A stretch of DNA of 64,000 bases from Pontiella desulfatans (GCF_900890425.1 NZ_CAAHFG010000004.1:124001-188000), one strand, 5' to 3'; positions 49,995 through 60,975 are shown, numbered from the stretch's first letter. Notes: generated by a model not told the origin, from the letters alone. Numbers and translations: made by a program.

Positions 49995-52271
49995 CTAGGC
50001 CTCTGCGGCGTCCACGAGATTGCAGTCGATTAGATAAGCTTCGATTTCGCTGATTCGCCCGAAATCGAGCATGGCGTTGGCCATCTCCTCCGCCTCTTCG
50101 AGCGAAATGGAGTTCACGAGGCGCTGGACGGTCAGGGCGTTGACAATATCGATGCTGAACCTTCTCAAACCGACACCAAGAAGGAAGGGTAGCATGCGGG
50201 GGTCTGCCGAAAGGTCACCGCAAATCGAGACATCCTTGCCATGCGTTTCACTCGCCGAAACAATCCGGTTGATGGCGCGCAGGATGGCGGGGTGGTGCGC
50301 CAGATAGAGCTTGGAAACCTGCTCGTTAGTCCGGTCGACGGCGAGCATGTACTGAATCAGGTCATTCGAGCCAATGGACAGGAAATCAGCCTCCATGGCC
50401 AGTTCATCGACCACCTCGACGGCGGAGGGCAGCTCCATCATGACGCCCAGTTGCGTGTCGCGGCTGAAGGGGATTCCCTCCTCCTCCAGTTCGTCCATGC
50501 ATTCGTAGACGATGGAACGCGCTTCGACAAAATCGTCGACCGACGAAATGAGCGGGAACATGATGCGCGTTCCGCCACCGGCGCCGGCGCGTAGAAAAGC
50601 GCGGAGCTGCTGGCAGAAGATATCCCTGTTCTGCAACGAGAAGCGGATGGCGCGCATGCCGAGGAACGGATTGGCCTCGCTGACGTTGGAATAGTAGGAG
50701 AGCATCTTGTCGCCGCCGATATCCAGCGTACGGAAGGTGACGGGCTTCCCTTCCATCTGTTCAACGAGTTTCTTGTAGATGATGTATTGCTCTTCTTCAG
50801 GCGGGAAGTCGTTGCGGACAATGAACGGGAACTCGGAGCGGTAGAGCCCGACGCCTTCGGCCTTGAACTCGCGGGCGGGCTTCAGGTCGCTCAGCAGGTT
50901 GATGTTGGCGTAGATATGCACCCGTTCGCCGCACTTGGTTTTGGTCTTGGCCTTCATGTCCGAGGCGTTGTGCATGACCTTCCAGGCCTCGTCGAGTTCG
51001 CGGTATTTCGCATAGACCTCGGCACCGGGCCGCAGGTAGATGATCCCCTGCTCCGCATCCATCAGCAGCTCCTCGCCATCCGGAATACCGTCGGCCAGTT
51101 CGCGGCTGATCGCCACCATCGGGATGCCCAGCGACCGGCAGATGATGGCGTTGTGCGAGGTTACACCGCTACTGACAATGAACCCCTCCACGTTTTCGGC
51201 CGAAAGCTTGAGGATATCCGACGGCAGCAGTTCGTGGGCAATGATGATCTGGCTTCGGTAGTCGCACTCGCCGGCCTCTTCGTTGATCAGGTTCCGCGTC
51301 AGCCGGTTGCCCAAATCCTTAACATCGAGCACCTTTTCGCGGATGAGCGGCATGGAGCTCTTGGAGAACACTTCGACATATTCATTCACCACCGTGGCAA
51401 TCGCCTTGAGGGCGGGGGTGCCGGTCTGGATCAGGTTCCCGATGCGACCGGTAAACTGCTCGTCCTCCAGGATCAGCAGGTGGGCACTGAAAATCAATAC
51501 GGCGACATCGGCAAGGTCTTCGCTGGTTTGGCGTTGAAGCTGTTCAATCTGGGAGGCCGTTTTGCCGACGGCCGTTTCAAAGTCCTCGAACGAGTGCGGC
51601 GGGGCGTCCGGGTCGGGCAAGGCGCAGCTTTCGCTGTTCGCCGAATCCAGGGTGTAGGCCGTGCCGCGCGCCGTACCGGTGCTGGCCGACCGACCGCGCA
51701 AAATGCTTGCGGTGGTCACCTTCTTCGCCACGGGAACCACGGGGGCTTCCGCCTTGTCGCGCGCCTCCTTCAGGAGCTGCACGTTTTCGATCATGGTGGC
51801 CAGCTGCGCGGCGATCGCCCGCAAGGCCTTCACGTCGTTGGACGTGAAATAGTTGGTTTCGCGCGCCTGCACCACCAGCGCGCCAATGCGGCGAAGCCCG
51901 CGCAGGATCGGCACCGCCAGAAAAGCCTCGTATTCCTCTTCGTGGATCCCCGGGAAAAACTTATAGGAAGCACTCTGCGAGGCCGTTCCAACGCAGATCG
52001 GCCGAAGCTCGCGAACGGCCCGGCCCGTGATCCCCTCGCCCAAGCGCAGCTTGACGACCCCAATCGCGGCTTCGTCCAGCCCCTGGGTCGCGCGGAGGGT
52101 CAGTTGCCTGTCGTCCTCATCGTAGATATAGATCGAGCAAACATCGGCTAGCATATGCTTGGCCACGGACGTCACTACTTTTTGCAGCAACTCCTTGCGG
52201 TCCCGGCCATTTTCGGCCAGCGATATCAGCTCCGCGATATCGCATATTAGATCTACGTTCTTCTTTTTCAT
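49995..52271 (-). CDS. ptsP: GAF-domain PEP-protein phosphotransferase (enzyme I Ntr)
   Basis: 758 residues. An N-terminal GAF domain (about 15-165; 'HMLADVCSIYIYDEDDRQLT', 'GITGRAVRELRPICVG') is followed by enzyme I: HPr-binding helical region, phospho-histidine domain with His373 in 'VSSGVTSHNAIICRSLGIPM', and the PEP-binding barrel ('GVGLYRSEFPF', 'RTLDIGGDKML', 'MRAIRFSLQNRDIFCQQLRA', catalytic Cys in 'SICGDLSADPRML'). This is the PtsP form that starts the nitrogen-related phosphotransfer chain to NPr and PtsN and is regulatory rather than for sugar uptake. No NPr or PtsN gene is in the window. It is divergent from the E1-KAS III fusion gene. Confidence 0.95.
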   Translation of the reverse strand: MKKKNVDLICDIAELISLAENGRDRKELLQKVVTSVAKHMLADVCSIYIYDEDDRQLTLRATQGLDEAAIGVVKLRLGEGITGRAVRELRPICVGTASQSASYKFFPGIHEEEYEAFLAVPILRGLRRIGALVVQARETNYFTSNDVKALRAIAAQLATMIENVQLLKEARDKAEAPVVPVAKKVTTASILRGRSASTGTARGTAYTLDSANSESCALPDPDAPPHSFEDFETAVGKTASQIEQLQRQTSEDLADVAVLIFSAHLLILEDEQFTGRIGNLIQTGTPALKAIATVVNEYVEVFSKSSMPLIREKVLDVKDLGNRLTRNLINEEAGECDYRSQIIIAHELLPSDILKLSAENVEGFIVSSGVTSHNAIICRSLGIPMVAISRELADGIPDGEELLMDAEQGIIYLRPGAEVYAKYRELDEAWKVMHNASDMKAKTKTKCGERVHIYANINLLSDLKPAREFKAEGVGLYRSEFPFIVRNDFPPEEEQYIIYKKLVEQMEGKPVTFRTLDIGGDKMLSYYSNVSEANPFLGMRAIRFSLQNRDIFCQQLRAFLRAGAGGGTRIMFPLISSVDDFVEARSIVYECMDELEEEGIPFSRDTQLGVMMELPSAVEVVDELAMEADFLSIGSNDLIQYMLAVDRTNEQVSKLYLAHHPAILRAINRIVSASETHGKDVSICGDLSADPRMLPFLLGVGLRRFSIDIVNALTVQRLVNSISLEEAEEMANAMLDFGRISEIEAYLIDCNLVDAAEA

Positions 52272-52410: not shown

Positions 52411-55400
52411 ATGAATACACCGTCCGCAGAACAGCTGCTCGAACTCTACCGCCCCATGGTAGCCTCGCGCTACACCGACCAACTGCAGTCCGCTGCAGCG
52501 CAACGGGGCGAGGTTTTTTTCTATATTCCTTCGTCGGGGCACGAAGCCTCCGCCGCCCTGGCGCCGCACCTGATCCAGGCCGACTGGCTGCACCTGCACT
52601 ACCGCGACCGGGCCCTGGCCTACGCCCGCGGCGTCTCCTACGCAACCGTCTTCTACGGCCTGTTCTCCAAGGAAGAGTCCAACTCGGCCGGCCGCCGCAT
52701 GCCCGCCTTCCCGTGCGATCCAGCGCTGAACATCCTCAGCACCCCGACGCTCGTCGGCAGCAACGTGCTGCAGGCCGTCGGCGTCGCCTCGACCATCAAG
52801 AACGACGAAGGCCACCCCTTCGTGCTCGTCTCGGTGGGCGACGGCGCCACCCAGCAGGGCGACTTCTACGAAGCCGTTGCCGAGGCCGTGCGCTCCAACC
52901 TGCCGGTGCTGTTCCTGGTCGAGGACAACCGCTTCGCGCTCTCCACCGTCACCAAGGGCAACACCTTCTATTCACTGCCCGGCGGCGAAGCCGACGCGTT
53001 CTACGGCCTGCCGATCCGCCGCATCGATGGTTCCGATGCCGCATCCGCCCACACCCGCTTCGGCGAGGTGGTCGGGCAATTGCGCGAAACGCGCGGCCCG
53101 CAGATTGTCGTATTCAACGTGGAACGGCTCGAAAGCCACACCAATGCCGACGACCAATCCGTCTACCGCACCGAAGCCGACCTCCGGCATGCGATGGAAA
53201 ACGCCGATCCCTGCGCCAAGCTGCGCGACCACATGCTGGCCAACGGCGTCGATGCCGCCGCCATCCAGGCCGTTGAAGACGAGGTGAAGGAACAGGTCGA
53301 TGCCGCGTTCCACCTTTCGCGCAAAGGGACCACGCCCACTGCCGAACCGACCGCCAAGAAGGCGCTGCCCGCCCCGCGCGAGGAATACCTCGGCACCGCC
53401 GAAGGCCGCGAACTCAGCATGCTCGAAGCCATGCGCGCGGCCCTCAGGATCCGGCTTTCAAACGATTCGAAAACCACCCTGCTGGGGCAGGACATCGAAG
53501 ACCCGAAGGGCGACGTGTTCGGCCTCACCCGCGGACTTTCGCAGGCCTTCCCCGCACAGGTCAACAATGCCCCGCTCGCCGAAAACACCATTCTCGGCGT
53601 CGCCACCGGGCAGGCGCTCGCGGGCGGCCATCCGGTTGCGTTCATGCAGTTTGCCGACTTTCTGCCGGTGGCCTACAACCACATCCTTTCCGAGATCGGC
53701 GCCATGTACTGGCGCACCAACGGCCAATGGGAATCGCCGGTGCTCGTCATGTCGATCGCCGGCGGCTACCGCCCCGGCCTCGGCCCGTACCACGCCCAGA
53801 CCATGGAGGCGATTCTCGCGCACGTGCCGGGCGTCGATGTCTTCATGCCTTCCACCGCCGCCGATGCCGCCGGCCTGCTCAACGCCATTGCCGAATCCGG
53901 GCGCCCTTCGGTCTTCCTCTTCCCGAAAAGCCTGATCAACGACCGCACCAACACCACCTCGGCCGACGTTGAAAAGCAGTATGTCCCGATCGGCAAGGCG
54001 CGCGTTGCCCGCGCCGGGCAGGACATCACCCTCGTCAGCTGGGGCGGTTGCATGCCCGTGGTCGAGCGCACCGCCGAGGCGCTGGCCGAAATCGGCCTCA
54101 ATGCGGAAGTCATCGACCTGCGCACCATTTTCCCGTGGGACGAGGAAACCGTCCTCGCCTCCGCCCAAAAGACCGGAAAGCTCATCGTTGTCCACGAAGA
54201 CAACCAGACGGCCGGCATGGGCGGCGAGATTGTTGCGGCCATCTGCGAAAAGACCGGCGGCGACGTGCAGGTGGCGCGCGTCACCCGCCCCGACACCTAC
54301 ATCCCCTACGATTTTTCCTGCCAGATCGAAGTCCTGCCCTCGTTCAAGCGCACCCTGGGCAAATGCTGCGAAATGCTCGACGTCGAACTCCACTGGGAAA
54401 AACCCGTCGAGGAGGAGGCCGGAACCGTCACCGTCAAGGCCATCGGCTCCAGCCCGTCCGACGAAACCATCACGGTTGCGAGCCTGCTTGTTGAAGTGGG
54501 CCAGGCCATCGCCGAAGGCGACCTGATTGCATCGGTCGAGGCCGACAAGGCCTCGATGGACATCACCTCCCCGGTTTCCGGAACGATTTCCGAGCTGCTT
54601 GCCGAAGAGGGCGACGTGCTGACCGTCGGCACGCCGATGGTCAAGATTGCCTCCGACGAGGCGGCGCAGCTCAAACCGCTCACCAAGGAAGAGCCCGGCA
54701 CACCGATCATGGAGCGGCGGCGCAGCAGTACGGCCGACGTGCAAGCCGCCCCAACCAGCGGCCCGTGCGAACCGAAGCCGATCTATATCTCGAATATTAC
54801 AACGGTTCTGGGTTCGCGCCACCTCACCAACGACGAGCTGCTCCAGGGCCATGGCGAATGGGATTCCGAAGCCATCCGCAAACGCACCGGCATCGAAAAC
54901 CGCTACTGGATCGACGGCGATGAAAACGTGCTGACCCTCGCGGTCGACGCCACCAAGCAACTGCTCGAAAAAGAACAACTCCAGATTTCCGACATTGGCG
55001 CCATCATCTGCTCCACCGGCACACCGCTGGCCATGACGCCCTCGCTGGCGTGCAGCGTGCTGCACGAACTCAGCCCCGAAAAAGGCGAAGTGCTCATGCA
55101 GGCCCACGATGTGAATGCCGCCTGCTCCGGCTACATGTATGCCATGCAATCCGCCTTCGATTTCCTCACCAACGCCCCCGAAAAAAAGGTGATCGTCATC
55201 ACCGCCGAAACCCTTTCGCCGATGGTCAACCACGACGACCAGAAGACGATGGCGCTTTTCGGCGATGCGGCGACCGCCTCGCTTGTGAGTTGCGAAAAGC
55301 GGCCCGGCAACGTGGGCGTGAAACTCAACCGCCCGTTCCTCTCCGCCACCGGCGTCGATGCGAAGGTGCTCTATGTCCCGAACATGGGCAGCGGCGAGGT

Positions 55401-55740
55401 GGTGGAAATGGAAGGCCTCACCGTCTTCAAGCTGGCCGTCCGCAAGATGATCGACATGCTCGACAATGCCTGCCAGGAACGCGGCATCACCGTCGAGGAT
55501 CTCGACATGATCGTGCCGCACCAGGCGAACGAGCGCATCATCGAGGCCATCCGCAAGACCATCCATTGCCCGCCGGAAAAAATGTTCAACCATATCCGGA
55601 AATACGGCAACACCTCGTCGAACACCATTCCGATCGCCTTGACCGAGCTGATCCCATCCATGGACATCGATTCCAAGGTTGGCCTCACCGCCTTCGGCGG
55701 CGGCTTCACCTTCGGCGCCGCCGTGATCGAGAAGGTTTAA
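52411..55740 (+). CDS. four-part fusion: 2-oxoacid dehydrogenase E1alpha + E1beta + lipoyl domain + KAS III
   Basis: 1109 residues. About 1-305: E1alpha, with 'LHYRDRALAYARG' and the thiamine-diphosphate motif 'VSVGDGATQQGDFYEA...VEDNRFALST' (GDG 143-145, Asn173). About 330-660: E1beta, with 'GLGPYHAQTMEAILAHVPGV' (His461 and His471) and the C-terminal transketolase half. About 670-748: a lipoyl/biotinyl domain with the modifiable Lys713 in 'ASVEADKASMDITSPVSG'. About 788-1109: beta-ketoacyl-ACP synthase III with a complete Cys-His-Asn triad (Cys905 'NAACSGYMYA', His1037 'IVPHQANERI', Asn1067 'YGNTSSNTI'). There is no E2 acyltransferase core and no E3. The parts suggest decarboxylation of a 2-oxoacid, acyl capture on the lipoyl arm, and use as starter for condensation with malonyl-ACP. 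That route is an inference. Confidence 0.93.
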   Translation: MNTPSAEQLLELYRPMVASRYTDQLQSAAAQRGEVFFYIPSSGHEASAALAPHLIQADWLHLHYRDRALAYARGVSYATVFYGLFSKEESNSAGRRMPAFPCDPALNILSTPTLVGSNVLQAVGVASTIKNDEGHPFVLVSVGDGATQQGDFYEAVAEAVRSNLPVLFLVEDNRFALSTVTKGNTFYSLPGGEADAFYGLPIRRIDGSDAASAHTRFGEVVGQLRETRGPQIVVFNVERLESHTNADDQSVYRTEADLRHAMENADPCAKLRDHMLANGVDAAAIQAVEDEVKEQVDAAFHLSRKGTTPTAEPTAKKALPAPREEYLGTAEGRELSMLEAMRAALRIRLSNDSKTTLLGQDIEDPKGDVFGLTRGLSQAFPAQVNNAPLAENTILGVATGQALAGGHPVAFMQFADFLPVAYNHILSEIGAMYWRTNGQWESPVLVMSIAGGYRPGLGPYHAQTMEAILAHVPGVDVFMPSTAADAAGLLNAIAESGRPSVFLFPKSLINDRTNTTSADVEKQYVPIGKARVARAGQDITLVSWGGCMPVVERTAEALAEIGLNAEVIDLRTIFPWDEETVLASAQKTGKLIVVHEDNQTAGMGGEIVAAICEKTGGDVQVARVTRPDTYIPYDFSCQIEVLPSFKRTLGKCCEMLDVELHWEKPVEEEAGTVTVKAIGSSPSDETITVASLLVEVGQAIAEGDLIASVEADKASMDITSPVSGTISELLAEEGDVLTVGTPMVKIASDEAAQLKPLTKEEPGTPIMERRRSSTADVQAAPTSGPCEPKPIYISNITTVLGSRHLTNDELLQGHGEWDSEAIRKRTGIENRYWIDGDENVLTLAVDATKQLLEKEQLQISDIGAIICSTGTPLAMTPSLACSVLHELSPEKGEVLMQAHDVNAACSGYMYAMQSAFDFLTNAPEKKVIVITAETLSPMVNHDDQKTMALFGDAATASLVSCEKRPGNVGVKLNRPFLSATGVDAKVLYVPNMGSGEVVEMEGLTVFKLAVRKMIDMLDNACQERGITVEDLDMIVPHQANERIIEAIRKTIHCPPEKMFNHIRKYGNTSSNTIPIALTELIPSMDIDSKVGLTAFGGGFTFGAAVIEKV

Positions 55741-55761: not shown

Positions 55762-57624
55762 TCAGCCGGGCGGCAGGGTGCTCTTTTGGTAGTGTTCGAG
55801 ATCGGTGGCGTATTGCGCGGAATGCCGCTGCTGAAGACGCTCGGTTTCGGTTTTGAGGGCTTCGATGGCGCGCATCTGGAACTCGACCGCTTTCGGGAAG
55901 TTGCCGTTGAGGGCGTAGGCCTGCGCCAGGACATCCCAGAACCGGTAGTTCTGCCGCGGCCAGACCAGCAACTTGGCCGCATATTCCATGGCGGCTTCCG
56001 GGTTGGCGTCCGTTTCGGTGTAGGTTCTTAGCACGCTGTGCAACGCCTCGGGGTGGCCGTTGTCGGCCGCCCGGAGCTGCCATTGCTCGGCCTGGGCGGA
56101 ATCTTCCGGAACCCCGGGCAATCCTTTGCGGTAGTAGTGCCACAGGCTGTAGGCGGCATAGCCGTTGTTGGCGGAGGGATCGATCGAATAGGATTCCATG
56201 AACAGATCGAACGCCGCCTTTTGCTCGCCGTTGTTGCGGGCCTGGACGGCCTCGTCGACCAGATCCGCAGCCTTGCCCCGGCTGGGCCGTTGCTCCTTGG
56301 CGTAGGGATTCTTCGGAGGCTCCGCGCGTTTTGCCGCAACGGACGGGGTTGTGGTACTGGATTTTTTATTGAGCTCGCCCTGGATCCGCTCGAATTCCTT
56401 CTTCGCCGGCGCGTGTCCTTTCGCCATGGCGATGGCATAGCAATACATCGAGCGCTTCAAGCCTGCCGCGCGGATCACCTTGAGCTTTTCCTTATCCATG
56501 TTGTTGCCGACGCGCGATACGATTTCATCGATCCAACGTTCATTGCGCCGGCCCTCCTCGAAACACTCCTCCGCATCGCTATGCTCCAGCCGCTCCCAGA
56601 CCTTGTCGAAATATGCCATCCGTTCCGCGCGGTCTTCCCCCAGCTCCACGCCCGCGTCTGTTGCGGTTGCGTAGCACTCGGCCGCCTTGATGTAATCGAT
56701 CCCCGCCCCCAGGCCCAGCCAATGGCAGTCGCCCAGCTCCAGGGCGGCCTCGGCCGAACCGGCGGCCACCGCCCGCTCGAACCATTGCACCGCCTGATCC
56801 TCCTCCTGCTTTTCCAGGCACTGCCTGCCCTGCATATACAGGCCCCACGGCATGCCTTGGTCGGCGGCGGAAAGAATCCACACCTCGGAAGCCGCAACCG
56901 GCTCCGGGATGCCGCGCTTGTATTGCGCAATCCGCTCCTTGAAACCGGACGCCTGCTCCAGCGAGCAATACCGCACGGCATCGGACTGAAACTTGACCGC
57001 TTGGGCAAAATCCAGATTCCGTGCATGGGCCGCCGCCAGAATGGCGAGCGCGTCGGCATCGCGCGGATTCTTGCGGGCGACGGCGGAGGCATATTTCACG
57101 GCCAGTTCCCCATCGTGGAATTCGGGATCTTCGCAGCTCGCATAAATGCGCGCCAACCCTTCGCAGGCCTTGAGCGAGTTTTGGGCCACGGCCTTTTCAT
57201 ACCACGCGATCGCCTTGGCATAATCCTTCGCCGCCCCGGCGCCGGTTTCAAAGCAATGCCCGGCCCCGACCATCGCCGAAACATTCCCCTGCTCCGCCGC
57301 CTGCACGAACAATCCGCACGCCTTCGCCGGGTCGGACTCGAACACCGCCGCGCCCTGCCTATAGAGCGCGTCCGCGTCGCCGTGCACGATGCTGGTCGCC
57401 AGTAGCAACGCAAGCATGTAGGCCGGGTGCCCCACCCGGCGCGTGGTGTAACGGCTTCTATTGCTCCGGCGATTAAATAGTGAGAATTCCATGCGGCGGA
57501 ACAATGGCCACAACGAGGCACGAAAAACCGGCAGGCCGGGTCTTTGTGTTTCCCGTTCCTTTGCGTGGCAATCGTCGCAACGTGTGGTCGCCGCATCCAT
57601 AATGCACATCGATCCAATCCTCAT
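55762..57624 (-). CDS. Sel1/TPR-repeat protein, copy 1
   Basis: 620 residues if begun at the ATG at 57624, which has AGGAAGG seven bases upstream. The hydrophobic stretch 'MLALLLATSIVHG' then lies at about 69-81; an ATG at 57492 would put it 25 residues from the N-terminus like a signal peptide. The body is Sel1/TPR-like helical repeats ('GNVSAMVGAGHCFETGAGAA', 'SAEAALELGDCHWLGLGAGI', 'GHPEALHSVLRTYTETDANP'), suited to protein binding outside the cytoplasm. The first 155 residues are almost identical to copy 2. It lies 14 bases after copy 2's stop, in a same-strand series of four repeat proteins. An odd 'CDDCH' occurs near the N-terminus. Confidence 0.85.
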   Translation of the reverse strand: MRIGSMCIMDAATTRCDDCHAKERETQRPGLPVFRASLWPLFRRMEFSLFNRRSNRSRYTTRRVGHPAYMLALLLATSIVHGDADALYRQGAAVFESDPAKACGLFVQAAEQGNVSAMVGAGHCFETGAGAAKDYAKAIAWYEKAVAQNSLKACEGLARIYASCEDPEFHDGELAVKYASAVARKNPRDADALAILAAAHARNLDFAQAVKFQSDAVRYCSLEQASGFKERIAQYKRGIPEPVAASEVWILSAADQGMPWGLYMQGRQCLEKQEEDQAVQWFERAVAAGSAEAALELGDCHWLGLGAGIDYIKAAECYATATDAGVELGEDRAERMAYFDKVWERLEHSDAEECFEEGRRNERWIDEIVSRVGNNMDKEKLKVIRAAGLKRSMYCYAIAMAKGHAPAKKEFERIQGELNKKSSTTTPSVAAKRAEPPKNPYAKEQRPSRGKAADLVDEAVQARNNGEQKAAFDLFMESYSIDPSANNGYAAYSLWHYYRKGLPGVPEDSAQAEQWQLRAADNGHPEALHSVLRTYTETDANPEAAMEYAAKLLVWPRQNYRFWDVLAQAYALNGNFPKAVEFQMRAIEALKTETERLQQRHSAQYATDLEHYQKSTLPPG

Positions 57625-58187
57625 AAGGCGGCCTTCCTTTAGTTTTCTTCCTGCTTGGGCTTCATGCCGATCGCCCAGGCCTTGCCTTGGCGGAACAGTT
57701 CGAGGCGGTATGCATACATTTCGAGGGTTTTGGCGGAACCGTTCGCTTCCTTCGCGAGTCCATAGGCCTTTTCCTGCGTCTTCACCGCCATGCCGAAATC
57801 GCCAGTCCGCGCATAGGCGCAGGCCAGGGTGTCGATCTCGTGATGGGAATCGCTAAGCTCAACGGCCATGAGCGCAAACCTCAAGGCCTTGGCGCCATCG
57901 TGGAACGGGGCGTTTCGGTTGCAGGAATAGAACATGGAAATGACGTTGCAGCCATAGCCATATTTCAGTTCGGCTGCCTTGAGCATCCAGTCCTCGGCCT
58001 TGGGCAGGTCCCGGATCGCCGGCGTATGCAGGTAGATGTGCCCAATCTTATACGCAAGCAGACCGTTTGCTTCTTCGCCGAAGGCTTTCTGCAGGATTTC
58101 GAGCGCCTTTTTCGGATCCTTCTTCACCCCATCCTTACCCTCCCGATATTTATCGGCCTCCCGGATTGCATCCTTGTAGGCGTTCCT
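57158..58187. repeat. 1.03-kb direct repeat, left copy
   Basis: Matches 59002-60031 base for base except for a handful of substitutions, always at an offset of 1844 bases. It spans the 5' part of Sel1 copy 1, the 14-base gap, and the last 183 codons of copy 2. The right boundary is sharp: both copies agree through GGCGTTCCT and then differ. The left boundary is at CCTTCGCAGG, with weaker similarity beyond it. Confidence 0.92.
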
Positions 58188-59468
58188 CGGTGAAGGAGTT
58201 CGCCCAGTAGAAGCCGTCGATTGCATCCGAAGCGCGTCCGGATGACCCTTTTTTCGAGCCAAGGCAAAATAAAACGCTGCCATCTCGGGTTTCGGCTGAA
58301 CGGTTACCGTGGTCGTTGTATACGTCGTGTTCCCATAGATATCGGAGCCGGAAGGCACTTCCGCCGAGTAGGTGTATCCATCCCGGGCTCTGACTCCCGC
58401 CGCCATGCAGTTTTTCGCCTCCCACTCGAAGCATTTAAGATACCTTACCCGAACGGGTGTTTTAGCCTTTTCATAGCAGTCGTGTTTCAGTGCCAATTTG
58501 TAGTATTCAGCCGCTTTGTCCAGATCGAGGAACGATCCCTCAGCGAAATAATAGACATCCCCCGCCAAGGCATACAGCGACAACTTTCCGGCGCCAATGG
58601 CTTTCTCGCACATCTGAATGGCCAACCTTGGATTGTATGCTTCACCCTTTCGATCCGCATATCGCTTGGCCATGAGTACCGTTGCCCAAAGGTTGCCGCG
58701 GTTCGAGGCCTCGAACACCCACGCTTCCGTGGCGACCGAAGGAATCGGCTCGTCGGCCTTCAGGCGTTCGATTTTACTGCGGATCTCCTTCGCCTGCTCA
58801 ATGCTATCCACACTACGGGAAGCCTTGGTCGCCGACTCCAGTGCTTTGCCGAAGTCGAAATTCCGCGCATACGCTGCGGCCAAGAGAGCAAGCGCGTCGC
58901 CGTTGCGCGGATTCTTTCGAACACAGGCCTCGGCATATTTGACCGCCTTTTCGCCATCGTGGAATTCGGGATTTTCGCAACTCGCATAAATCCGGCCGAG
59001 GCCTTCGCAGGCCTTGAGCGAGTTTTGGGCCACGGCCTTTTCATACCACGCGATCGCCTTGGCATAATCCTTCGCCGCCCCGGCGCCGGTTTCAAAGCAA
59101 TGCCCGGCCCCGACCATCGCCGAAACATTCCCTTGCTCCGCCGCCTGCACGAACAATCCGCACGCCTTCGCCGGGTCGGACTCGAACACCGCCGCGCCCT
59201 GCCTATAGAGCGCATCCGCGTCGCCGTGCACGATGCTGGTCGCCAGTAGCAACGCAAGCATGTAGGCCGGGTGCCCCACCCGGCGCGTGGTGTAACGGCT
59301 TCTATTGCTCCGGCGATTAAATAGTGAGAATTCCATGCGGCGGAACAATGGCCACAACGAGGCACGAAAAACCGGCAGGCCGGGTCTTTGTGTTTCCCGT
59401 GCCTTTTCGTGGCAATCGTCGCAACGTGTGGTCGCCGCATCCATAATGCACATCGATCCAATCCTCAT
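57639..59468 (-). CDS. Sel1/TPR-repeat protein, copy 2 (mosaic)
   Basis: 609 residues, same start context as copy 1 (AGGAAGG then ATG at 59468; alternative ATG at 59336). The first 155 residues are nearly identical to copy 1 ('CGLFVQAAEQGNVSAMVGAG'), the middle is unique ('GNLWATVLMAKRYADRKGEA', 'FLDLDKAAEYYKLALKHDCY'), and the last 183 residues are nearly identical to copy 3 ('RNAYKDAIREADKYREGKDG' to 'MKPKQEEN'). The gene is therefore a mosaic of its two neighbours, visible at nucleotide level as a 1.03-kb direct repeat. Sel1-type repeats throughout predict a scaffold role; the membrane-targeting segment suggests export or anchoring. No enzymatic motif is present. Confidence 0.85.
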   Translation of the reverse strand: MRIGSMCIMDAATTRCDDCHEKARETQRPGLPVFRASLWPLFRRMEFSLFNRRSNRSRYTTRRVGHPAYMLALLLATSIVHGDADALYRQGAAVFESDPAKACGLFVQAAEQGNVSAMVGAGHCFETGAGAAKDYAKAIAWYEKAVAQNSLKACEGLGRIYASCENPEFHDGEKAVKYAEACVRKNPRNGDALALLAAAYARNFDFGKALESATKASRSVDSIEQAKEIRSKIERLKADEPIPSVATEAWVFEASNRGNLWATVLMAKRYADRKGEAYNPRLAIQMCEKAIGAGKLSLYALAGDVYYFAEGSFLDLDKAAEYYKLALKHDCYEKAKTPVRVRYLKCFEWEAKNCMAAGVRARDGYTYSAEVPSGSDIYGNTTYTTTTVTVQPKPEMAAFYFALARKKGHPDALRMQSTASTGRTPSPRNAYKDAIREADKYREGKDGVKKDPKKALEILQKAFGEEANGLLAYKIGHIYLHTPAIRDLPKAEDWMLKAAELKYGYGCNVISMFYSCNRNAPFHDGAKALRFALMAVELSDSHHEIDTLACAYARTGDFGMAVKTQEKAYGLAKEANGSAKTLEMYAYRLELFRQGKAWAIGMKPKQEEN

Positions 59469-60031
59469 AAGGCGGCCTTCCTTTAGTTTTCTTCCTGCTT
59501 GGGCTTCATGCCGATCGCCCAGGCCTTGCCTTGGCGGAACAGTTCGAGGCGGTATGCATACATTTCGAGGGTTTTGGCGGAACCGTTCGCTTCCTTCGCG
59601 AGTCCATAGGCCTTTTCCTGCGTCTTCACCGCCATGCCGAAATCGCCAGTCCGCGCATAGGCGCAGGCCAGGGTGTCGATCTCGTGATGGGAATCGCTAA
59701 GCTCAACGGCCATGAGCGCAAACCTCAAGGCCTTGGCGCCATCGTGGAACGGGGCGTTTCGGTTGCAGGAATAGAACATGGAAATGACGTTGCAGCCATA
59801 GCCATATTTCAGTTCGGCTGCCTTGAGCATCCAGTCCTCGGCCTTGGGCAGGTCCCGGATCGCCGGCGTATGCAGGTAGATGTGCCCAATCTTATACGCA
59901 AGCAGACCGTTTGCTTCTTCGCCGAAGGCTTTCTGCAGGATTTCGAGCGCCTTTTTCGGATCCTTCTTCACCCCATCCTTACCCTCCCGGTATTTATCGG
60001 CCTCCCGGATTGCATCCTTGTAGGCGTTCCT
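59002..60031. repeat. 1.03-kb direct repeat, right copy
   Basis: The partner of 57158-58187 at an offset of 1844 bases. It spans the 5' part of Sel1 copy 2, the 14-base gap, and the last 183 codons of copy 3. Differences I noted include CCCCTGCTCC against CCCTTGCTCC, and CCCGATATT against CCCGGTATT. Confidence 0.92.
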
Positions 60032-60796
60032 GGATGGAGGAGCTTGCGTCCGAAGCGCGACTGGAGGCCCCTTATCTTCCCAAACCACATCCTTTCCAAA
60101 GCCAGAGGGGATGGCGTATTCGCGCATCACGGGTTTGCCGGCGACCGTTGGCCCATAGATCCTGAAAAGCGCACCCTGCACATTGTCTTGCCGTACCTTC
60201 CGTTTCTTGGTGCTCGATCGGGGAATCGGATTTCCGTATATGTCGTAGTCCGTCCAGGTTTCGGTAACGGTTTCATAAACCTCCGCCAGGGATTCGGGAT
60301 CCGTGCTACGGGTCTGTTTGTCGCGGTTCTCCAGAGTTCCAAAGTCGATCCTCCCGCCGACGCAACGCTTGGAATCCGCCTTTCCTGCATAGCCTTTCTG
60401 ATCAATATAAACGCGGTACTCCACCCGCACGTCGTTGTAGGGGAATCCGCTTAGATTTTGCAGCATGACGTCGTAATGGACGTTGTCGGATCCCGTTGAA
60501 CTCTCCTTCTTCATCTGGGCAGCCACCCGGAATTTTTCATTTTCGCAAAACAAGTTCCCGACAATCCACTCCTCGATATAAGGCTGGTCCTTCACCGCGA
60601 ACGTACCGGGATTGATCCACACCTTGGCTCCGTTGTTGCGCTCGATGCGCAGTTGGTTGCGGGAGGGGTTGTATTCCAGAATCCGCGCCTCGATGACGCG
60701 CCCATCCGCCGCCGTGAAAATGCGGAAATCGCCACCGGCCTCCGCGAAACAGATGCCGGCGAACACCGCGAACATCAACCCTAGAACACCTTTCAT
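59483..60796 (-). CDS. SHD1-like + Sel1-repeat exported protein, copy 3
   Basis: 437 residues from MKGVLGLMFAVFAGICFAEA, a signal peptide; GGGGG lies just upstream, and an ATG four codons earlier is an alternative. Residues about 23-78 ('DFRIFTAADGRVIEARILEY' and 'DQPYIEEW') resemble the SLA1-homology-1-type domain common in PVC exported proteins. A beta-rich middle (about 80-245) follows, then the Sel1 tail from about 255 that is nearly identical to copy 2. Only this tail is shared, so the proteins exchange C-terminal modules. It is the second gene of the four-gene minus-strand series, after the TPR protein at 60978. Confidence 0.85.
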   Translation of the reverse strand: MKGVLGLMFAVFAGICFAEAGGDFRIFTAADGRVIEARILEYNPSRNQLRIERNNGAKVWINPGTFAVKDQPYIEEWIVGNLFCENEKFRVAAQMKKESSTGSDNVHYDVMLQNLSGFPYNDVRVEYRVYIDQKGYAGKADSKRCVGGRIDFGTLENRDKQTRSTDPESLAEVYETVTETWTDYDIYGNPIPRSSTKKRKVRQDNVQGALFRIYGPTVAGKPVMREYAIPSGFGKDVVWEDKGPPVALRTQAPPSRNAYKDAIREADKYREGKDGVKKDPKKALEILQKAFGEEANGLLAYKIGHIYLHTPAIRDLPKAEDWMLKAAELKYGYGCNVISMFYSCNRNAPFHDGAKALRFALMAVELSDSHHEIDTLACAYARTGDFGMAVKTQEKAYGLAKEANGSAKTLEMYAYRLELFRQGKAWAIGMKPKQEEN

Positions 60797-60907
60797 CACC
60801 ACCCCCATGGTTTGAATGCCAACAAGATAGCAGGGAGTTTTGCAAAAACCCGTAAGGACAGCAAGCCTTTGGGGCATCGGGCCCACCTGCCGGCATGACA
60901 TTTTCAA

Positions 60908-60975
60908 TGGAGGGCGAGGCGCTGTCCAAGCCTGCCCAGCCACCAGCGGAAGCTCGGACAGAGCCTCGCCCTCCA
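60908..60975. repeat. palindromic intergenic element
   Basis: TGGAGGGCGAGGCGCTGTCC (60908-60927) pairs with GGACAGAGCCTCGCCCTCCA (60956-60975), one mismatch in 20 bp, 28-base loop. It fills the gap after the TPR gene. The TGGAGGG tip is shared with the larger element at 33585-33717, so both may belong to one dispersed family. Confidence 0.8.

Follow-up and report, generated by a model that had tools for sequence, protein, structure and literature searches.

A single gene of Pontiella desulfatans appears to encode a one-chain starter-unit synthase for branched-chain fatty acids, in which the acyl group derived from 2-oxoisovalerate would pass through a lipoyl arm to Cys905 of a fused KAS III and be condensed there with malonyl-ACP; we give this reading a probability of roughly 0.6. 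The gene lies in a stretch of 64,000 nucleotides (GCF_900890425.1, NZ_CAAHFG010000004.1:124001-188000), hereafter the window, and its features are collected in Table 1. Bacterial fatty-acid synthesis is taught as beginning with acyl-CoA taken by KAS III. Here, a valine-derived branched starter could probably be formed and consumed with no free CoA intermediate, an inference for which there is no biochemistry. What can be observed is that the domains are intact, that their catalytic residues are conserved, that the residue pair holding the CoA adenine is lost, that lipoyl and E3 supply is encoded, and that the chain is kin to E1-lipoyl-E2 proteins.

Table 1 The fusion gene and its parts (positions in the window; residues are those of the encoded chain)
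Feature	Position	Strand	Basis
Complete E1-alpha/E1-beta/lipoyl/KAS III fusion gene	52411..55740	+	Open ATG-to-stop frame, 1109 aa plus stop; Pfam
E1-alpha part, residues 1-310	52411..53340	+	Pfam E1_dh 14-310; ThDP motif G143-D-G145...N173; H63 and H243 invariant
E1-beta part, residues about 330-658	53398..54384	+	Pfam Transket_pyr, Transketolase_C; E391 and H461 invariant
Lipoyl domain, residues about 672-748	54424..54654	+	Pfam Biotin_lipoyl 686-746, 62 bits; predicted all-beta
Lys713 codon, predicted lipoylation site (V-E-A-D-K-A)	54547..54549	+	Invariant in 37 fusions
Linker, residues 749-787, probably flexible	54655..54771	+	Lowest model confidence; pLDDT <50 at 771-787
KAS III part, residues 788-1109, triad C905/H1037/N1067	54772..55737	+	Pfam ACP_syn_III, ACP_syn_III_C; NCBIfam NF006829; FabH fold matches
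Ala821 codon, at E. coli FabH Trp32 position (CoA adenine stacking)	54871..54873	+	Alignment, 38 fusions
Thr876 codon, at E. coli FabH Phe87 position	55036..55038	+	Thr in 38/38 fusions
Gln944 codon, at E. coli FabH Arg151 position (second half of adenine sandwich)	55240..55242	+	Alignment, 38 fusions

An earlier note on this DNA had described one 1109-residue frame carrying, in order, a thiamine-diphosphate (ThDP) motif, E1-beta histidines, a lipoyl lysine and a KAS III triad, and the frame, the Pfam matches and the residues all agree with that description. Besides E1_dh (135 bits) and Biotin_lipoyl, matches above the Pfam gathering cut-offs were obtained for Transket_pyr (residues 335-509), Transketolase_C (528-634), ACP_syn_III (900-966) and ACP_syn_III_C (1021-1107). 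The C-terminal part scored 269.8 bits with NCBIfam NF006829 (beta-ketoacyl-ACP synthase 3), the cut-off of which is 249, and the best matches among the NCBIfam E1 models carried pyruvate dehydrogenase names, all far below their cut-offs. The active-site residues GDG 143-145...N173, H461, K713, C905, H1037 and N1067 are all present; across 37 aligned fusions these and E391 are invariant, apart from D144, which is kept in more than 90%. With an E1-alpha fold and ThDP motif, and an E1-beta fold with the catalytic Glu and His, the chain has what defines an alpha2-beta2 E1, and it is inferred, without assay data, that this E1 decarboxylates a 2-oxoacid and acylates the lipoyl group. Similarly, the lipoyl domain has the Biotin_lipoyl fold and a modifiable Lys713 in a D-K-A type turn, and the KAS III part has a thiolase fold with an invariant Cys-His-Asn triad. 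Neither PF00198 (2-oxoacid_dh, the E2 acyltransferase) nor any E3 domain was found in the chain by Pfam search, and no such gene is a conserved neighbour, so the fusion does not qualify as a complete branched-chain 2-oxoacid dehydrogenase complex.

Near-full-length copies without internal stops were found in at least 54 genomes, which confirms that the fusion is real, rules out an assembly error or a chance joining of genes, and bears out the four-domain layout that the earlier note had wished to see traced across genomes. The carriers belong to the Kiritimatiellae, to other classes of Verrucomicrobiota and, in one case, to the planctomycetes; because near-full-length copies recur over this range, the fusion is a family rather than a local accident. 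Identity was 61-89% to the fusions of nearly all Pontiellaceae and of a neighbouring family of the order, 44-50% in other Verrucomicrobiota classes and 46-47% in Planctomycetales bacterium 10988. More families of Kiritimatiellae hold a near-full-length fusion, and a clear match is missing in about two thirds of the class. Pontiella sulfatireligans F21T carries the fusion (L039, a named record), and a contig of a MAG labelled Thiotrichales encodes its first 820 residues at 45% identity before the contig ends. A tblastn search of plasmids with the fusion as query gave no record that reached 80% query coverage.

The fusion was modelled by AlphaFold2 as a single chain, without the expected dimer, from an alignment of 37 fusions (mean pLDDT 88, pTM 0.68). 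The sole stretch of very low confidence lies between the lipoyl domain and the KAS III part (771-787). Foldseek/VIA placed the E1-beta part closest to the E1-beta of the Thermus branched-chain 2-oxoacid dehydrogenase (1um9_B, Z 43.6, rmsd 1.4 over 320 residues) and the C-terminal part with FabH structures (Z 39-41.5). A predicted structure, as asked for in the earlier note, is available for the whole chain, and the PDB matches to its E1-beta and KAS III folds have a VIA Z of about 40-44. The match lists were filled by these two parts, and the E1-alpha part and the lipoyl domain were searched only within the whole chain. E1 heterotetramers and KAS III dimers have two-fold symmetry in common, which makes a fusion homodimer plausible, though this is an inference.

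FabH enzymes of the E. coli type sandwich the CoA adenine between Trp32 and Arg151 (PMC4606726). With E. coli FabH as the reference (sequence confirmed against the PDB), we aligned 38 fused KAS III domains and 23 stand-alone KAS III/FabH proteins, most of the latter from fusion-carrying genomes. Trp32 was found in none of the 38 fused domains, which have Asp, Ala, Gly, Glu or Lys instead, compared with 21 of the 23 stand-alone proteins; equally, Arg151 was found in 0/38 against 20/23, and the fused domains have Pro, Gln, Tyr, Phe or others. The alignment passes a small indel region at Trp32, where the phmmer alignment is the same and a predicted helix at 819-826 agrees, and is unambiguous at Arg151. 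Cys112, His244, Asn274 and Arg249 of FabH were kept in all 38 fused domains and Arg36 in 32, whereas Phe87 was replaced by Thr in every one. Position 87 has a role in the acyl pocket, and Arg249 one with ACP; condensation with malonyl-ACP by the fused KAS III is inferred, without an assay. Fused and stand-alone domains also separated in the KAS III tree (100/100).

The loss of Trp32 and Arg151 rules against a canonical acyl-CoA-binding FabH but leaves the fold and the chemistry of a KAS III possible. It supports CoA independence and is no proof of it, because two to three stand-alone relatives (L085, L140 and partly L139) also miss the pair. These are extra KAS III paralogues in which Trp32 and/or Arg151 is changed. 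In most fusions a conserved Trp817 lies close to the position of Thr28 and could take part in stacking a ligand.

In the E1 tree the KAS III fusions formed one group (100/99), the neighbours of which are single-chain E1-E1-lipoyl-E2 proteins (99/98) and two Streptomyces E1s; other Kiritimatiellae E1s, mostly adjoining ordinary E2 genes, fell outside. The single-chain proteins (L088-L096), of about 1020-1100 aa, occur in many Verrucomicrobiota, and at the three loci inspected no E3 gene adjoins them. They share with the fusion the order E1-alpha, E1-beta, lipoyl, at 34-38% identity across the E1 part, but end in a PF00198 acyltransferase, from which handover of the acyl group to CoA is expected, where the fusion has KAS III. 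The branched-chain dehydrogenase complex and FabH of Bacillus and Staphylococcus likewise lead from a 2-oxoacid through a branched primer to a 3-oxoacyl-ACP with homologous E1, lipoyl and KAS III parts, although these are separate proteins linked by a diffusible acyl-CoA from E2, a step that the one-chain fusion does without. Corynebacterium OdhA, an E1-E2 fusion that was among the fold matches (8p5v), also joins a 2-oxoacid dehydrogenase E1 to another component. It has a homodimeric-type E1 and an E2-like domain, with no lipoyl domain of its own, and differs from the fusion in having no KAS III.

The two Streptomyces E1s are alpha-beta fused, and the gene of each immediately precedes that of a giant synthase whose first domains are lipoyl, E2-like, ACP and ketosynthase. 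These starter modules lie beside the E1 on linear plasmids (L158, 14941-31786; L159, 14941-32076; NZ_CP109590.1 and NZ_CP061282.1). The gene order resembles that of pristinamycin II, a streptogramin-type pathway for which an isobutyryl start has been reported (PMC6963833), and from the gene content we infer that these clusters make a streptogramin. As in the fusion, an alpha-beta E1 feeds a lipoyl domain built into an assembly line, near ACP and ketosynthase; in contrast, the Streptomyces E1 is not part of the synthase chain, the type I KS comes after an E2-like domain and an ACP, and the product is an antibiotic, whereas the fusion is one protein with KAS III. Since its sister E1s sit in E1-E1-lipoyl-E2 chains and in such loading modules, KAS III takes the place of the E2 acyltransferase. 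A search of the open-access literature, which left out most subscription journals, turned up no account of a fusion like this. The earlier impression that no enzyme with this layout had been described thus holds within that scope, whereas the concept of coupling a 2-oxoacid dehydrogenase straight to chain initiation has a parallel in the antibiotic starter modules of the Streptomyces clusters. Each module is a known one; to our knowledge the direct acyl step from lipoyl to cysteine is new.

A stand-alone lipoamide dehydrogenase (Lpd) and LipA were each found above cut-offs in 30/31 fusion genomes tested, and the single genome without either match is 73% complete; in P. desulfatans both are encoded elsewhere in the genome. 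Within the class, LipA was present in 33/33 near-complete fusion genomes and 71/110 others (Fisher p 8e-6, uncorrected for phylogeny). This presence is only permissive, and lipoate carriage on Lys713 in cells is inferred. E2 proteins and GcvH were each found in 30/31 fusion genomes, which gives Lpd and LipA other proteins to serve as well. With Lpd encoded elsewhere, the arm can be re-oxidised without new chemistry, and the lack of a fused E3 is ruled out as an obstacle. The question of re-oxidation without E3, which had been left open, is thereby answered, and the non-oxidative variant that had been allowed for is not needed. Canonical FabH is also encoded in the P. desulfatans genome, a point against the one-chain reading.

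Even-numbered iso fatty acids derive from isobutyryl primers, and odd iso and anteiso acids from leucine and isoleucine. In Pontiella strains and Tichowtungia, the major fatty acids are C18:0, i-C12:0, i-C14:0, i-C16:0 and i-C18:0, a list that contains neither odd iso nor anteiso acids (PMC7356697; PMC10880615), C18:0 being the main one in Pontiella (PMC7356697). Branched acids that are all even iso point to an isobutyryl primer, and because of this profile in cultured strains 2-oxoisovalerate is the most likely, though inferred, substrate of the fusion. That Tichowtungia carries the fusion is itself inferred. Kiritimatiella glycovorans makes i-C14:0 and is counted as a caveat, there being no evidence either way on a fusion in this species.

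The simplest scheme in which all the conserved features have a part leads from E1 to lipoyl, to the KAS III cysteine and to malonyl-ACP. The fused E1 would decarboxylate 2-oxoisovalerate, the keto acid of valine, on thiamine diphosphate and reductively acylate the Lys713-bound lipoyl group to S-isobutyryl-dihydrolipoyl. The arm would then swing on its flexible linker to the KAS III part and deliver isobutyryl to Cys905, in place of the E2-to-CoA step, and condensation with malonyl-ACP would yield 4-methyl-3-oxopentanoyl-ACP, the first even-iso intermediate. Free Lpd encoded elsewhere would re-oxidise the arm with NAD+. Substrate, lipoylation, direct transfer and product are all inferred. The proposal that the lipoyl arm feeds the KAS III cysteine, already made in the earlier note, has gained from the adenine-pair loss, the placing of KAS III in the E2 slot and the isobutyryl-type fatty acids; the transfer step itself still rests on inference. 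That such transfer allows CoA-independent initiation of fatty acids in the primary metabolism of many Kiritimatiellae, scattered other Verrucomicrobiota and planctomycetes seems to us somewhat probable.

The fusion could instead channel its intermediates and yet depend on CoA: the E1-lipoyl part would use a separate E2 or CoA, KAS III would take acyl-CoA, and the fusion would provide proximity only. KAS III enzymes ordinarily take acyl-CoA, Arg249 and, mostly, Arg36 are kept in the fused domains, and the E2 domains in 30/31 genomes speak for other 2-oxoacid dehydrogenase complexes, so an alternative source of isobutyryl-CoA is not excluded; a ferredoxin-dependent 2-oxoisovalerate oxidoreductase would be one further route. 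We nevertheless consider this arrangement unlikely, given that both adenine-site residues are gone from all fused domains and that the chain has neither an E2 acyltransferase domain nor an E2 gene beside it.

Direct transfer could also operate without CoA on another 2-oxoacid (pyruvate, 2-oxobutyrate or a mixture) and give straight-chain or other products, as the pyruvate dehydrogenase names of the sub-threshold E1 matches and the prominence of C18:0 in Pontiella would allow. This is doubtful at best: the canonical FabH of the same genome can supply acetyl priming, Thr rather than Phe stands at position 87 in all fusions, and the E1 clusters in the tree with E1s of the streptogramin type, whose products as a class reportedly begin with isobutyryl (PMC6963833). 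The lack of a fused E3, raised in the earlier note, would suit a non-oxidative transfer through a hydroxyalkyl-ThDP carbanion or an aldehyde-level intermediate, with the lipoyl domain vestigial or in another role. However, Lys713 is invariant in 37 fusions from two phyla and E3 and LipA are encoded in fusion genomes. KAS III moreover needs an acyl thioester, and we see very little room for this variant.

If the isobutyryl starter is indeed made and used on the one chain, fatty-acid synthesis can take in a 2-oxoacid with no free acyl-CoA involved, a single protein decides which branch type the membrane has, and there is a direct genetic explanation for the unusual even-iso lipids of Kiritimatiellota. 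Comparison with the E1-lipoyl-E2 chains suggests that exchanging a single module could convert an enzyme from catabolism to biosynthesis, and the fusion would be useful for engineering defined branched starters.

The surroundings of the gene gave no functional hint. No conserved E2, E3 or fab operon was found around it when the loci were compared, and an operon-based function was rejected as the neighbours are not conserved, except that at most Pontiellaceae loci a divergent PtsP-like gene (GAF and PEP-utilising enzyme domains; window 49995-52271) lies upstream of the fusion. Elsewhere in the P. desulfatans genome, a lipoamide dehydrogenase (L048, 1498-3321, on C1) that carries a lipoyl domain at its N terminus adjoins an 825-aa alpha-beta fused E1, and the pair is apparently another 2-oxoacid or acetoin dehydrogenase complex. 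Three adjacent minus-strand genes at 55762-60943 of the window, the first of them Sel1/TPR-like, share long near-identical N- or C-terminal stretches (for instance 55762-57624 with 57639-59468, and the latter with 59483-60943); they appear to have arisen by recent tandem duplication.
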